Part shown: piece after piece, positions 15,447 to 22,056 of the stretch
Position numbering within the stretch: the first letter of the stretch is position 1
Layout of the letters: each line of letters begins with the position of its first letter
NCBI RefSeq assembly: GCF_002209355.2
Contig: NZ_CP106855.1
Span: 1,054,001-1,118,000 of the forward strand
DNA length: 64,000 nucleotides
Reading direction: 5' to 3'
Source of the DNA: Bdellovibrio sp. SKB1291214
GTDB lineage: Bacteria; Bdellovibrionota; Bdellovibrionia; Bdellovibrionales; Bdellovibrionaceae
Notes under the pieces: model-generated
Seen by the model: the letters and a program-made list of their open reading frames with translations, nothing else
Database searches by the model: none
What the model was told of the DNA's origin: nothing
Program-made: the position numbers and the translations under genes

Positions 15447-16871
15447 TTATTTTAACAAACTTTTCAGAAGATTATCAAAATATTGTCGAACCGCCGCCTC
15501 ATCCGTTGCGCCATTGTATATAAAGGAGAACGTAATAACTCGTCCGTCTTCAAGTCCCGCGTAACCTGCTAAAGTTACGACGTTATTAATATATCCCGTT
15601 TTAGCGCGCACCCAGCGTTCGGCATTTGTTCCTTTCATTCTCTTTTTTAGGGTGCCATCAATTCCTGCAATAGGCAGACTTTGCAGGAATTCGGGTTGCA
15701 CACGGAAGTCGTTGCGCAGATGTTGGAGCACTTTCCACATAGCATATGACGACATTTTATTTTCACGCGTTAGACCCGATGGACTCTCTAAGTGGTACTG
15801 ATCTTTAGGGATTTGCAAAGCTTGCATGTGTTCTTGAATCGCGACCATGCCATCTGCAAGTGTGACACCTTTTTCTTTTTTCAAGGTGCCCATGTTTTTC
15901 GTCAGCATCTCGGCCACATAGTTATTCGAGAATTTATTCATATCCGCGACGATGGCTTCGATCGCTTTACTTTCAGCTTCTGCAGCCAGGGAAGCGGTGG
16001 AAGGAGTGTTACCTGTTTTGACCGCCCCAGTGACCGATACACCACGCTGAGATAAAAATGCTTTTAAGTTATAACCTGACCAAAGGTCTGGCTGCGTGAT
16101 GTTTTTAAAGATTGTTACTTCCTTAGCGTTCACACCGATGCTGCCGCCCACGTGCAAAAGATCACCATCAAACTTTGGATCTTCTTTACGATCTGCAAAA
16201 ACTTCCCCGCCGCCTGCTTTGGTTTTAGTCTTTGCAACCAACCGGATGTATTCGTTTTCTGGATCTGCGTAAACGCGAGCATCGTCGCCGGATTTAGCGC
16301 CCGGGCGTACAAAGATATTTATCGAATTCCAATTAAAGGACATTGCACCGACGGGAGCATCGTATGCACGGTCTACACGCTCTTTTTGACGACTGATATC
16401 GTAGCGCATTTTATCAAATAAGCTATCGTCCACGACGATATCACCTTCCACTCGTTTGATATCGTTACGCAAAAATGCGTTCACTAAGAACCACATGTTT
16501 TCTGAAACAAACGAGGGGTCACCGCCACCTTTTAAGTACACATTGCCTTTAAGAACACCTTTTTTATCAACGTCACCGGTGATCCAAATCTGTGTTTTGA
16601 ATTTATGACCTGGAGGAAAAGTCGCGAGCACCGCTGATGCAGTGGCAATTTTAGAAATGGACGCTGGAATCATCAACTTTGTGCCGTTGTTATCAAGCAG
16701 GACCTTTAGGTTTTCACCCTCGCCCACTGAAGCATACATGCTAAGATCTGACAGCTGGACCTTGCTCTTTTTCGCCAAACTTTGCATTTCGTCTTGCGCG
16801 AACTTCGCATCCAAATTTGCTTTTGCTGAAAAACTAAACAGCATCGCTGTCGTAAGAATGAAAAATCGCAT
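15447..16871 (-). CDS. dacB: D-alanyl-D-alanine carboxypeptidase/endopeptidase (PBP4 type)
   Basis: PBP4-type enzymes remove the terminal D-Ala and cut peptide cross-links of peptidoglycan. All three penicillin-fold motifs are present: S71-I-S-K74 in PASISK, SNN in KFSNNYVAEM, and KTG in VRAKTGYINN. The 474-residue length and a signal peptide (MRFFILTTAMLFSFSAKA) fit. I start it at 16871 after GGAGGACTCC; in-frame sequence up to 17087 would bury the signal peptide. HD100 has, from memory, three DacB homologues, two of which round up prey; this could be the third. The upstream gap to the divergent lspA-like gene is 124 bases. Confidence 0.93.
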   Translation of the reverse strand: MRFFILTTAMLFSFSAKANLDAKFAQDEMQSLAKKSKVQLSDLSMYASVGEGENLKVLLDNNGTKLMIPASISKIATASAVLATFPPGHKFKTQIWITGDVDKKGVLKGNVYLKGGGDPSFVSENMWFLVNAFLRNDIKRVEGDIVVDDSLFDKMRYDISRQKERVDRAYDAPVGAMSFNWNSINIFVRPGAKSGDDARVYADPENEYIRLVAKTKTKAGGGEVFADRKEDPKFDGDLLHVGGSIGVNAKEVTIFKNITQPDLWSGYNLKAFLSQRGVSVTGAVKTGNTPSTASLAAEAESKAIEAIVADMNKFSNNYVAEMLTKNMGTLKKEKGVTLADGMVAIQEHMQALQIPKDQYHLESPSGLTRENKMSSYAMWKVLQHLRNDFRVQPEFLQSLPIAGIDGTLKKRMKGTNAERWVRAKTGYINNVVTLAGYAGLEDGRVITFSFIYNGATDEAAVRQYFDNLLKSLLK

Positions 16872-16995
16872 TTGGAGTCCTCCATGATCAACAATATCAA
16901 CGCAGTTATAACCCGAATTGAAACCTACTAGACAATGGTAGCGATCGCTAAATGAATTCGCAACAATTTCAGGCTCTGTTGATAGACTGAGTTCC

Positions 16996-17958
16996 ATGAA
17001 AAAGCGCGAATGGCTCATTGTTATATTTCCACTTCTAGTGACTTGGTTGTTCGACCGCGTAACTAAATTGTGGGCTGCTGATATCACGGCTGTGAAATCA
17101 TATGGTCCGCTACACTTTGTATTGCATCACAATCACGGCGCAATGCTAGGCCTGTTTTCAGATTTGCCATCCGTTTTGCGTATCGTTTCATTGTCGACGG
17201 GTGGCGCTTTTCTTTTATGTACGTATGCTTTGATTCAATATCTTTTACCCATCAAATCGCTGACGCTTCGTACAGGTTTATCTATTCTGATCGGTGGTAT
17301 CTTAGGGAACGTGGCGGATCGTATCGCTTGGGGATACGTTGTCGACTTTATCGTCGTGGGTACTCCATCCCTTTCTAGCCCGGCTTTCAATATTGCCGAT
17401 GCTTTGCAATGGGTCGGTTACGGATTGATCGTCCTGGCGATCATTCGCGAAGGTGAATTGCTTTGGCCGGAAAACAATTCTCGTAAGAAATTCTGGGTGA
17501 ATCTATCGTTCCAGTTGAAATATTGCATCTTGATGATGGCTGTGGGACTCAGTTTAACTTTAATCAGCCTGGTATTCTCTTACACATACTTGCGCGTTAC
17601 GATCACGGAACTTGTCGGCAGCAATCAATTCCTTTTGAATAAATTCCTGGTTCCCTACGTGATCACTTTCACGATCATCTGTATCGCGTTCTGTATGATT
17701 ACTTTCGCTGTTGGTAAAGTTTTGTCCCACCGAATTGCAGGCCCGATCTATGCTTTCGAAAGATACATCAACGGTATCTTTGCTGGTGAAAACGCCCGCG
17801 TTTTCAAAGTCCGCAAGGGCGATGAATTCAAAGAACTTGAACAACTAGCGGCGGAGATCTCTAAACGACTGGCCGTCATTAAGTCAGAACGCACCGTGAA
17901 TGTCGTTGAGTTTTCTGACAGCGGCAGCGACCCAGATACAAAAGCACAAAACGAATAA
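16996..17958 (+). CDS. lspA: Signal peptidase II fused to a C-terminal membrane/HAMP module
   Basis: The first 160 residues match lipoprotein signal peptidase: GNVADRIAWGYVVDF gives catalytic D108, and FNIADALQWVG gives D135. Four membrane segments fit the aspartyl-protease fold that cuts prolipoproteins before the lipid-modified Cys. A normal LspA ends near residue 165, but this protein has 320. The extra part has two more membrane segments (about 178-197 and 219-241), then a HAMP-like linker (about 242-294: SHRIAGPIYAFERYING ... RKGDEFKEL), and a charged tail. HAMP normally carries signals in sensors. The SD is weak. A terminator shared with lon follows. Confidence 0.88.
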   Translation: MKKREWLIVIFPLLVTWLFDRVTKLWAADITAVKSYGPLHFVLHHNHGAMLGLFSDLPSVLRIVSLSTGGAFLLCTYALIQYLLPIKSLTLRTGLSILIGGILGNVADRIAWGYVVDFIVVGTPSLSSPAFNIADALQWVGYGLIVLAIIREGELLWPENNSRKKFWVNLSFQLKYCILMMAVGLSLTLISLVFSYTYLRVTITELVGSNQFLLNKFLVPYVITFTIICIAFCMITFAVGKVLSHRIAGPIYAFERYINGIFAGENARVFKVRKGDEFKELEQLAAEISKRLAVIKSERTVNVVEFSDSGSDPDTKAQNE

Positions 17959-17996: not shown

Positions 17997-20372
17997 TTAG
18001 TTCATTGCTCTTGGGAAGAGTGGGGTCGTGTTATCGAAGTTCAGCTTGTAAGCCGGGAAATCAATTTCCAGTGCGATCTTTAGCAGATCATTCACGTTGT
18101 CAACGAAGTGGAACTTCATCTGAGATTTGATTTCCTGAGGAACCTCGCGCAAGTCTTTTTCGTTTTTCTTACACAAGATAGCCTCGGTCACTCCAGCTCT
18201 GTGAGCCGCAATGATTTTTTCTTTAATACCACCGACCGGCAAGACGCTGCCACGAAGCGAGATCTCACCTGTCATCGCCAATTTAGGGTTCACAGGTTTT
18301 TTCAACATCTTCGAAGCAATCGACGTCAACATTGTCACCCCTGCTGAAGGACCATCTTTAGGGATGGCTCCCGCAGGAACGTGAACGTGGACTTCTTTTT
18401 TAGTGAAGTCGATTGTAGGATCCATCAACGGCAAGCGCGCTTTAAGCAAGCTCATCGCGATTTTCGCGGATTCCTGCATCACTTCGCCCAGTTGCCCCGT
18501 CAACAGCAATTGACCTGAACCTGGCATTTCTTCCGTTTCGATGAACAAGATGTCACCACCCACCGGTGTCCATGCAAGCCCTGTCACCACACCCGGTGGC
18601 ATCGCCGATTCCGTCAATTCGGAAGAGAATCTTTCTGCGCCAAAAATTTCATCCAAATCGTTAATATCAACGATCAGTTTCTGCTCTCCGGCTTTTAAGA
18701 TCTTCAAACTCATAAACTTGCAAATTGTCGCAATTTTTCTTTGCAGCTCACGAACGCCGGCTTCACGGGTGTAGTCGGTAATCATTTTTGTCAAGGCACC
18801 TTCGGTGATCTCCATTTGAGACTCCTCGATACCGTGCTCTTTTAACTGCTTCGGCCACAAGTGGCGTTTTGCGATGTTTTTCTTTTCCTCGATCGTATAA
18901 CCGGTAAGCTCGATCACTTCCATACGATCCAATAAAGGGCCTGGAATTGTATCAAGTGCGTTAGCCGTTGCGATAAAAAGAACTTTCGAAAGATCAAATG
19001 CCGTATCCAGGTAATGATCTTGGAAAGAATTATTCTGCTCAGGGTCCAAAGTCTCCAACAGGGCACTTGCAGGATCGCCGTTAAAGCTGCGCGATAGTTT
19101 ATCGATCTCATCCAGTACGAATACAGGATCGTTTTCACCGGCCTTTTTAATTCCGGAAATCACTCGACCCGGCATTGCTCCGATATAGGTACGGCGGTGA
19201 CCGCGGATTTCCGCATCATCACGCACCCCACCTAATGCCACCCGCACGTATTTCTTATTCAGTGCGCGCGCAATACTTTTACCAAGGGAAGTTTTACCTA
19301 CACCTGGAGGGCCTACGAATAACAGAATCGAACCTTGATGCGATTTACGCAGTTTCATGACGGCTAAATGCTGCAAGATTCTTTTTTTAATTTTATCCAT
19401 GCCAAAGTGATCTTCGTTCAAAATCGCTTCGGCCTTTTCTAAATCAATTTCTTGATCCGCTGATGATTTTGCCCACGGCAAATCTGTTAGCAAATCCAAA
19501 TGCGTACGGATGATTTGGTATTCAGGCGATGCTGAATTCATATTCTCCAAACGCTTCAACTGCGAATTTGCCAATGCCAACGCTTCGTCAGGCATTCCCG
19601 CCTCAAGGATTTTTTTACGGAACCCTTCGGCGACATCATTGTTGTCTTCATCACCCAGCTGTTCCCGAATGACTCGCATTTGCTCGCGCAGAATGCTTTC
19701 TTTTTGACTTTGATTGATGTTCTCGGTCAGTTTCTGACGAATATCCAATTGGATCTTCAATCGCTCCTTTTGTTCCTTCATCAGGTCCAAAATTTTTAGA
19801 GCACGTTCACGTACGTCAGCCGACTCTAAAATTCCTTGCTTATCAGCCAAGGAAAAATCAGCATGAGCTGCACACACGTTAGTCAGCAACGAGAGCTCCT
19901 CGATCTCTGCGATCCACTCCTTCACTCGGCGCATGTGCTTACCCAGTAAATCAACTGTCTCGTAGGCGATTTGTTTGAGGCTCTCAAGCAAGGCTTCCTC
20001 GGTCTTACGATCTGCGACCAGGATATCTTCAACTCCTTCCGTCAAAGTCTCATAGATTCCATTTTCAAATCTCATTTCACGCGCACGAATGCGCTGATGA
20101 GCATTGACGAAAATCGTAAAGCTTCCATCATCTTCTTTTTTATGGGATTCAATTTTACAAAGAGTTCCGACAGTATGCATATCCTCTGGCTTTTCAACAG
20201 TGCCTTCAGGATTTTTCTGTGAAAGTAAAACAATCCACTTTTGGTTGGTTAGTGCTTTTTGTAAAGCTTGAATACTGCGGTCTCTTCCAACCCGCAAAGG
20301 CATGCTGACACCGGGAAACAGAACGGCATTTCTTAGCGGAATAACAGGAAGGTAACCAGATACGAATGACAT
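17997..20372 (-). CDS. lon: ATP-dependent protease Lon
   Basis: Lon is a cytoplasmic AAA+ serine protease that degrades damaged and regulatory proteins. At 791 residues it matches the bacterial length (784 in E. coli). Order: N-terminal substrate domain ([21 protein letters not shown]), coiled helical region, Walker [13 protein letters not shown], Walker [10 protein letters not shown], and the protease domain with the catalytic Ser in [11 protein letters not shown] and Lys in [15 protein letters not shown] start it at 20372 after AGGTGAG; an in-frame extension to 20408 is not conserved. It is the sole gene of its unit, and no heat-shock hairpin is visible in its short leader. Confidence 0.97.
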
Positions 20373-20450
20373 GGTCTCACCTTTCCCCTGCTGTGAGTGC
20401 AGGGTCATAAGTTAATCATGTATCCGTTTTTTCAACCGTCAAGGTGAGGG

Positions 20451-21278
20451 TTAATAAACAATTCCCACATCTTTGATGCGAGACAGATAATACCGTTTAT
20501 TAGTATTTTCTCTCTGACAAAGGGCCATAAGATAGTCGCCATCTGGATTACGTACGATTCCAATCGGGCTCACACGGCGCGTTTCGCCCTTAGCTGAGCC
20601 ACCATCATATACGAGGTCCAAATCTTTTTTAGTATGAATGGATTCGATCATAGTCTTAAGAGATACATCGTTTACAGAGTGCATCGCATAGTCTTTCCAC
20701 CACAATTGCTTACCTTGGCTCTTAATTGCTTTCGCGAGAGTCGCCTCTTCGCCCATTTTTTTAAAGCATTCCAAACCAACATATAAGCAAGCCTTAGCAT
20801 CATCATAAGCGCGATGTGCCTGACCGCCATCGATATTTAGATGCTTGATCAAAGTTTGCAGTTTGTGATTTTCAACACCATGAATCCACTTACGTGAAAG
20901 GAGACTTGTGCAAAGAGCCGGCTCCATCGGCAAAGACAATCCCGCTTTTTCAAAATCGATTGTCAAAAAACCTAAATCGAAAGGAGCATGGTGAGCCATA
21001 ACCACCGAGCCTTTAAAAAAGGCATGAATCTCGTGAATCTTTTCGTTCATATCAGGCGCATCTGCCACCATCATGTTGGTGATGCCGTGGATGCCGATAA
21101 TAAAGTCGCTCATTAACTCGCGCGGTTTTAAAAGGAACTGCAGGCGATCTACTTCCTGACCTTTAAAGTACTTCACGGCTCCGAATTCGACGATGTCATA
21201 TCCCACTGGATAGGCGCCGCTGGTTTCAGTGTCGAAAGCGATATAAGAGTACTCATCTAAAGGCAGTTCTAAATTCAT
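20451..21278 (-). CDS. DEDDh 3'-5' exonuclease with C-terminal WYL domain
   Basis: The first 180 residues match DnaQ/RNase T-type exonucleases: FDTETSG (D and E of motif I), MAHHAPFDLGFL (motif II), and HRAYDDA (motif III His and Asp), a complete DEDDh set. The last 80 residues look like a WYL domain: KKDLDLVYDG, ETRRVSPIGIV, DYLMALCQRE, KRYYLSRI. WYL domains bind nucleic-acid ligands and control bacterial defence and DNA-damage genes. The joining of the two is unusual. ATG at 21278 is the start; longer in-frame readings are not family-like. The region just upstream is a GGGTAT-AC-ATACCC palindrome. No strong SD. Confidence 0.8.
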   Translation of the reverse strand: MNLELPLDEYSYIAFDTETSGAYPVGYDIVEFGAVKYFKGQEVDRLQFLLKPRELMSDFIIGIHGITNMMVADAPDMNEKIHEIHAFFKGSVVMAHHAPFDLGFLTIDFEKAGLSLPMEPALCTSLLSRKWIHGVENHKLQTLIKHLNIDGGQAHRAYDDAKACLYVGLECFKKMGEEATLAKAIKSQGKQLWWKDYAMHSVNDVSLKTMIESIHTKKDLDLVYDGGSAKGETRRVSPIGIVRNPDGDYLMALCQRENTNKRYYLSRIKDVGIVY

Positions 21279-21279
21279 G

Positions 21280-21293
21280 GGGTATACATACCC
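21280..21293 (-). promoter_or_regulatory. Palindrome in front of the exonuclease-WYL start
   Basis: GGGTAT-AC-ATACCC lies one base upstream of the ATG at 21276-21278. It covers the place of the ribosome site, so a bound protein or an RNA hairpin would limit expression. Confidence 0.4.
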
Positions 21294-21375
21294 TGTCAGC
21301 AGGGTTTTGGTCCAGTATCGTATCGGCTTTTCTTTGATTTTGTACTTTCTTCGTTCACAATGAAATGCACTATCT

Positions 21376-22056
21376 ATGCGAAGATACATCAGTTTTATCA
21401 TTACACTCTTAGGTCTTAGTTCTGCTGCTTGGGCAGCGGAAAATACTCCTACGTTCAAACTAACGGGCGATGTTTCGCTGCTTTCTCAATATGTTGAGTA
21501 CGGTTTGAACCAATCGGAAGGCTCTCCTGCTTTACAAGGGTCGTTCTGGTTTAACTTTGGACCTCAGTTCCGCATGGGACTGTGGGGTTCAAATACGAAC
21601 TATAAGAACAGTGATGATCATTTCAATTTACGCGGAAATGCTGATATCAAAATCGATTTCAGCCAAGATTCCCACGCAACAATCGCCTATAGCTACAGCA
21701 AGTTCTTTAAAGAAGGCGATCGTGACGGTCAAATTCTGGGGCTGCATTTGAATTTCGGTTCCTATCGCCTCACTTACGACAGCTTAAGCAATTGGGAAGG
21801 CACACATAGCAGATCGTCGCGTATTGGATTTGGCAAAGAGACTGTCGTGTTCACAGATTGGAAATGGGATCTGGAAGCAGGTTATAATTCACCGAACGTG
21901 ACCGGCATCAGCAGCTATTTTGATCTGCGCACGGCTCTTGGTACAAACTGGGGTGTGATTTATTTTGAAGGTGCCGTGACCGGCACCACTGCAGCCAGCG
22001 ACCTTGATGGCACTGGCGACGTTTATTTTATTCTGTCAGCGAAGACGGGCTTTTAG
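21376..22056 (+). CDS. TorF-family putative porin (Gcw_chp type)
   Basis: This 226-residue protein has a signal peptide ending AAWAAE. The mature part begins [33 protein letters not shown], the TorF/Gcw_chp pattern, and goes on with aromatic-rich alternating strands ([20 protein letters not shown]) to a terminal Phe (SAKTGF), typical of an outer-membrane barrel. These proteins are predicted 8- to 12-strand barrels and their cargo is mostly unknown. It is divergent from the exonuclease-WYL gene (97 bases apart), and its 3' end overlaps the convergent motB by 29 bases. Confidence 0.82.

Follow-up and report, generated by a model that had tools for sequence, protein, structure and literature searches.

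Lipoprotein maturation raises an unexpected question at one locus of Bdellovibrio sp. SKB1291214. Signal peptidase II (LspA) is usually taken as a single small housekeeping enzyme reading one lipobox; within the 64,000 nucleotides analysed here (hereafter the window), one gene encodes an LspA which does not stop where the enzyme normally ends and runs on into a second half of membrane helices and HAMP-like sequence. As such, the locus asks, on the one hand, whether both halves of this protein, called LspA-HAMP in the following, genuinely belong together and, on the other hand, which lipoproteins a signal peptidase of this kind would process beside an ordinary LspA.

Architecture of the gene product

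As originally predicted, one protein of 320 residues is encoded in a single open frame (Table 1), where the LspA part is followed, after residue 156, by a basic stretch, a pair of membrane helices joined by a short loop, and a HAMP-like helix pair. This additional C-terminal part was borne out by profile comparison and by an AlphaFold2 model computed as a single chain from 76 homologues (mean pLDDT 89.6, pTM 0.76), which places with confidence the LspA part, the two membrane helices, the connector, and the final helix (280-304).

Regarding the first half, LspA-HAMP passes the curated cut-off of PF01252 (81.5 bits vs. 25), its nearest solved chains are all lipoprotein signal peptidases, and the 4-helix LspA fold with its beta-cradle is present in the AlphaFold2 model (Z 17.6, rmsd 2.4 A over 147 residues to 5dir_A). 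Across the 104 LspA-HAMP sequences collected, some of them redundant, residues D20, K24, N46, N105, D108, D117, N132, and D135 are invariant and position 109 is occupied by R, K, or Q; neither the catalytic residues of LspA nor those in contact with the substrate vary. The original prediction had taken D108 and D135 as the catalytic aspartates; alignment to solved LspA retains D135 and replaces D108, which is the conserved Asp of GNxxDR, by D117. Roles of the aligned residues, the catalytic aspartates among them, have been described (PMC8689077). By sequence, residues, and fold, LspA-HAMP is a member of signal peptidase II, for which enzymatic activity is predicted. A reading as a pseudoenzyme was considered and is ruled out by the active site, invariant in all 104 sequences. 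Differences from normal LspA are found at Q138 (67 of 75 fused sequences) and W139 (68 of 75), where 21 of 21 normal LspAs have I and V, as well as at V106 inside GNxxDR, which consistently replaces the Tyr of normal LspA; V106 and Q138-W139 could contact substrate residues -1 to -3. For one pair of genes, dN/dS amounted to 0.07 in the LspA domain and 0.04 in helices 5-6, dS being saturated in the HAMP-like part.

Concerning the second half, the succession of TM helix, amphipathic helix, connector, and amphipathic helix is present in the model (211-262 and 280-304, pLDDT mostly 85-95), with Q173, G249, R273, and D276 invariant across the same 104 sequences. In HHalign, the profile of the fused module scored 29.6 against the HAMP segments of the same genome, where 150 TM-preserving column shuffles of the HAMP columns gave 11.6 +/- 2.3 with a maximum of 19.1; the register was correct, i.e., the GP of AS1 and then the D/E opening AS2, and the HAMP part alone scored 14.5 against a shuffle maximum of 14.0. 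The HAMP-like label is supported by this comparison with the shuffles, despite the fact that no member of the LspA-HAMP family matches Pfam HAMP (PF00672) at E<=0.1; because of the latter, the second half is called HAMP-like here and is not filed as a HAMP member. Among the fold matches, only WalK covered the module well with its HAMP-like part included, residues 170-312 aligning to the WalK TM-HAMP with a Z of 8.6, a value common for helical folds and obtained on an entry that is itself an integrative model; a search of the module profile against solved structures returned nothing significant.

Table 1. Coordinates of LspA-HAMP, its parts and its neighbours, given as positions in the window.
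Feature	Position	Strand	Basis
dacB/PBP4-type gene, divergent, conserved neighbour	15447..16871	-	Synteny in most loci of the order; start codon set by eye; named from sequence
Extended -10-like element TGATAGACT	16980..16988	+	Ends 7 nt before ATG; same element and spacing in several Bdellovibrionaceae loci
LspA-HAMP gene, 320 aa	16996..17958	+	Single ORF; full-length homologues in the order
Signal peptidase II (Peptidase_A8) domain, residues 14-150	17035..17445	+	Pfam PF01252, E 8.8e-23; fold Z 17.6 to 5dir_A and 6ryp
Predicted catalytic Asp D117 (VVDF)	17344..17346	+	Invariant in 104 sequences; aligned with VVDF of solved LspA
Predicted catalytic Asp D135 (FNIAD)	17398..17400	+	Invariant in 104 sequences; aligned with FNxAD of solved LspA
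Q138-W139, clade-specific, one turn after D135	17407..17412	+	I-V in normal LspA of the order
Helix 5, residues 170-207, FQxxY motif at its start	17503..17616	+	AlphaFold2 model; Q173 invariant
Helix 6 into HAMP-like first amphipathic helix, residues 211-262, SHRxAGP	17626..17781	+	Model; G249 invariant, P250 in 103/104
HAMP-like connector and second amphipathic helix, residues 263-304, LRxGDEF	17782..17907	+	Model; R273 and D276 invariant; HHalign to HAMPs of the same genome
lon-like protease gene, convergent neighbour	17997..20408	-	Adjacency to LspA-HAMP confined to the genome of the window and two close kin (L111, L112, L113)
Exonuclease-like gene, usual convergent neighbour in the order	20451..21458	-	Synteny

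Stand-alone 2TM-HAMP-like proteins exist in the Bdellovibrionota (L058, L059, L066), including in the genome of the window. The C-terminal half thus occurs by itself in other proteins, which rules out that it is a diverged form of a common LspA tail. At one locus (L066, genome G029), LspA-HAMP is immediately followed, on its own strand, by such a stand-alone gene. Elsewhere (L117, genome G069), LspA-HAMP runs on, within an ORF of 487 aa, into a peroxiredoxin/thioredoxin-like domain named by eye. The genome of the window also harbours a poly-HAMP protein, i.e., an open frame of 1832 aa with about a dozen consecutive HAMP matches (G000:C1:3062519-3065725, minus strand).

While a HAMP domain is expected to relay input from the membrane to an output domain in the cytoplasm, most homologues of LspA-HAMP end shortly after the HAMP-like segment, with a C-terminal tail that varies among them, and in the model helices 5 and 6 are joined by a short periplasmic loop. 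Because of this short loop, and with nothing following the HAMP-like segment, LspA-HAMP is no classical sensor. The same features, together with the stand-alone modules, speak for a module acting as anchor or dimer scaffold only, without regulation, on a constitutive, specialised LspA; SHRxAGP and LRxGDEF, strictly kept down to about 30% overall identity, are nonetheless more than an anchor needs, and this explanation is considered distinctly unlikely.

Genomic context, distribution and origin of the fusion

In most loci of the order Bdellovibrionales, LspA-HAMP lies between the divergent dacB and the exonuclease gene; the insertion of lon between LspA-HAMP and the exonuclease is particular to the genome of the window and its two close kin. 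No Shine-Dalgarno sequence precedes the start codon of LspA-HAMP, and a ribosome-binding sequence is likewise absent at several Bdellovibrionaceae loci. Considering this absence and the closeness of the -10-like element to the start codon, transcription would begin such that the mRNA is probably leaderless.

In a profile search of 192 Bdellovibrionota genomes, the full-length fusion was present in 53 of the 54 genomes sampled from the order, the sole exception being a genome of 1.2-Mb (G203), and sporadically in other classes of the phylum, namely in roughly 33 of 138 genomes of other families, where the split between the order and other families was counted by hand and includes partial matches at contig ends. 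Among 140 genomes of Myxococcota, LspA-HAMP occurs in a single one; for this lone case (L182, genome G249), a transfer and a misbinned contig are both possible. As for the second, normal-length LspA that the original prediction had proposed to look for, it is present in the genome of the window (G000, 3.68-Mb) as the only other LspA (168 aa, at 3482787-3483218). Nearly all of 60 relatives follow suit, with an LspA of roughly 170 residues and, beside it, another whose open frame spans 300 residues or more. In the tree of the LspA domain, the fused sequences group into a single clade, from which every normal LspA sampled is separated (support 100/99), a separation with which a single origin of the fusion fits. 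A third, short type of LspA (L088-L094, in genomes G024, G025, G031, G032, G033, G049, and G059) forms a clade of its own in this tree.

Two further origins had been envisaged, i.e., a sequencing error joining two genes and a sensor fragment fused by deletion. In the first case, the relatives carry no unfused version of the gene; in the second, conservation throughout the order excludes it. More generally, that an assembly error, a frameshift, or a deletion joined two genes found no support; against it, the fusion is carried at full length by dozens of genomes assembled independently of one another, and each of its halves has invariant residues. This explanation is refuted and its residual probability is negligible. 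LspA-HAMP is a genuine fusion of LspA with a 2TM/HAMP-like module, of ancient date and conserved; it is best explained as a presumably active signal peptidase II paralogue that arose once, early in the Bdellovibrionota, from an LspA and a stand-alone 2TM-HAMP-like module.

Candidate substrates and proposed function

Outside the order, the gene for a predicted lipoprotein with a polar lipobox lies within 60 nt of LspA-HAMP, on the same strand, at 17 of 31 loci, the other 14 being without such an immediate neighbour. By polar lipobox is meant [FYL]-[NQT]-[NQH]-C (YNQC, YTQC, FQNC) in place of L-[AS]-[GA]-C, where the accepted lipobox is [LV]-[ASTVI]-[GAS]-C (PMC8689077). Near LspA-HAMP, 18 polar and 4 canonical cases were counted, against 0 and 18 in 396 kb elsewhere in 20 of those genomes, with signal peptides called by a simple hydropathy rule and the polar class defined after the first neighbours had been seen (Fisher p 6e-8, related genomes being counted as independent). 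The pooled background over 1.06 Mb contained 2 doubtful polar cases. The polar-lipobox gene is placed beside LspA-HAMP in five different arrangements, namely (i) upstream in the family f17, (ii) downstream in one f17 genome (L134), where the next gene has GYQNC, (iii) upstream in f12 (L117), with LQNC in the preceding gene, and downstream in (iv) f20 (L128-130) and (v) f16 (L133), both with FQNC. In f17, a frequent and conserved operon comprises a lipoprotein, a CxxCH lipoprotein, LspA-HAMP, and a CxxCH barrel-like and a TPR-like protein, the last two named by eye; two of its products are polar-lipobox lipoproteins, with lipoboxes such as YNQC, YTQC, YNHC, and FNHC. Genome-wide, the f17-type pattern came to 187/129 with the fusion and 177/145 without it (summed by hand). 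In an ORF of 655 aa (L126, genome G170), the LspA-HAMP frame continues without a break into the CxxCH barrel-like protein, which in related operons is encoded by the following gene, and this read-through would form a further link within the f17-type operon.

These neighbours bear on the possibility that LspA-HAMP is a second general signal peptidase II, acting on ordinary lipoproteins at certain life stages, with a module that senses the state of the envelope or cytoplasm and gates activity, and that its polar neighbours are incidental. The complete active site, the HAMP-like anatomy, the separate promoter-like element, and the two LspA genes of most genomes agree with such a role; against it, 17 of the 31 immediate neighbours outside the order are polar and almost none are in the background, and there is neither a sensor domain nor an output domain after the HAMP-like part. 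On the whole, a general second enzyme is judged unlikely. What appears somewhat probable is that LspA-HAMP is a signal peptidase dedicated to polar-lipobox lipoproteins, which it would cleave, and that the HAMP-like module serves dimerisation or regulation and might gate the enzyme. This reading is drawn from the intact active site, the single clade, the coexistence with a normal LspA, and the recurrence of polar-lipobox neighbours.

In mechanistic terms, the 4-helix LspA part would be embedded in the membrane, its active site lying on the outer face, and helices 5 and 6 would place the HAMP-like helix pair on the cytoplasmic side. There, the pair most likely causes the enzyme to dimerise, and the activity or partners of the enzyme may be set by conformation; without a sensory loop or an output domain, it could be regulated only from the membrane or the cytoplasm. 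LspA-HAMP most likely cuts the signal peptides of [FYL]-[NQT]-[NQH]-C lipoproteins, a class that would be written FQNC or YQNC in Bdellovibrio and YNQC, YTQC, or YNHC in a related family, and the ordinary LspA would handle the canonical L-[AS]-[GA]-C class.

No locus of the order was seen to have a polar-lipobox gene as the direct neighbour of LspA-HAMP. The genome of the window contains 47 [FY]QNC sites, at 12 of which a signal peptide ends in [FY]QNC with A, G, or S as the next residue; Pfam matches among the five of these proteins that were scanned, i.e., a DUF1592-type cytochrome, a PA14 protein, Ig-like proteins, and one carbohydrate-binding-type match, suggest surface proteins. Predator lipoproteins are of importance in this group, a lipobox adhesin and prey-wall enzymes taking part in invasion (PMC11003981, PMC10127604). 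Counting [FY]QNC with a T required in the second position of an upstream codon, and with the reversed pattern as control, the order yields 1043 against 311, i.e., a 3.4-fold excess, which recurs in 53 of the 53 genomes with the fusion; the small genome without it (G203) has 3 vs. 6. This order-wide coincidence of fusion and [FY]QNC excess is confounded by ancestry. Outside the order, the ratio of [FY]QNC to reversed pattern is 1.34 without the fusion and 1.00 with it, the genomes with the fusion having no genome-wide [FY]QNC excess (207 vs. 206 reversed); this fits few substrates with other residues there and lends no support. In two genomes with a pattern excess and no fusion (G163 and G176), no convincing FQNC signal peptide was found in 337 kb and 124 kb, respectively, G163 giving two doubtful polar calls. 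The lipoproteins of the window, originally viewed as substrates of the fused enzyme, turned out otherwise: all those detected carry canonical lipoboxes, and for this reason they are better candidates for the ordinary LspA.

At the level of the phylum, it may tentatively be proposed, with a probability somewhat short of even, that Bdellovibrionota run two lines of lipoprotein maturation, LspA for L-[AS]-[GA]-C and the HAMP-bearing LspA for [FY]-[NQT]-[NQH]-C, such that a subset of surface lipoproteins would be matured separately and conditionally, e.g., during predation. If so, lipoprotein predictors would miss a class of surface lipoproteins in these predators, lipoprotein maturation would be controllable by substrate class, and HAMP-like modules could sit on a membrane protease.

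Comparison with known systems

A partial search of the open-access literature found no description of an LspA fusion of such kind or of an FQNC lipobox. With signal peptidase II (PF01252; 6ryo, 5dir), LspA-HAMP shares the fold of residues 1-155, both catalytic aspartates, the conserved Asn/Arg set, and the membrane topology; it differs from solved LspA by about 160 more residues, a separate clade, other residues beside the catalytic motifs and, probably, its substrate class. Like the HAMP domains of histidine kinases and chemoreceptors (PF00672; WalK), its module consists of a TM helix, a first amphipathic helix with GP, a connector, and a D/E opening the second helix. LspA-HAMP may work like a HAMP-coupled protein, yet its module stays below Pfam detection, has no output domain behind it, comes after an enzyme instead of before one, and bears a family-specific LRxGD motif. 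The stand-alone 2TM-HAMP-like proteins have the Q motif and the two helices, the closer ones also GP and R-x-x-D, but lack the fusion to LspA. Finally, myxobacteria carry extra LspA copies for self-resistance to the LspA inhibitor myxovirescin, likewise a second LspA beside the housekeeping one; whereas these extra LspAs are of normal length and tied to antibiotic resistance, LspA-HAMP is fused and order-wide.
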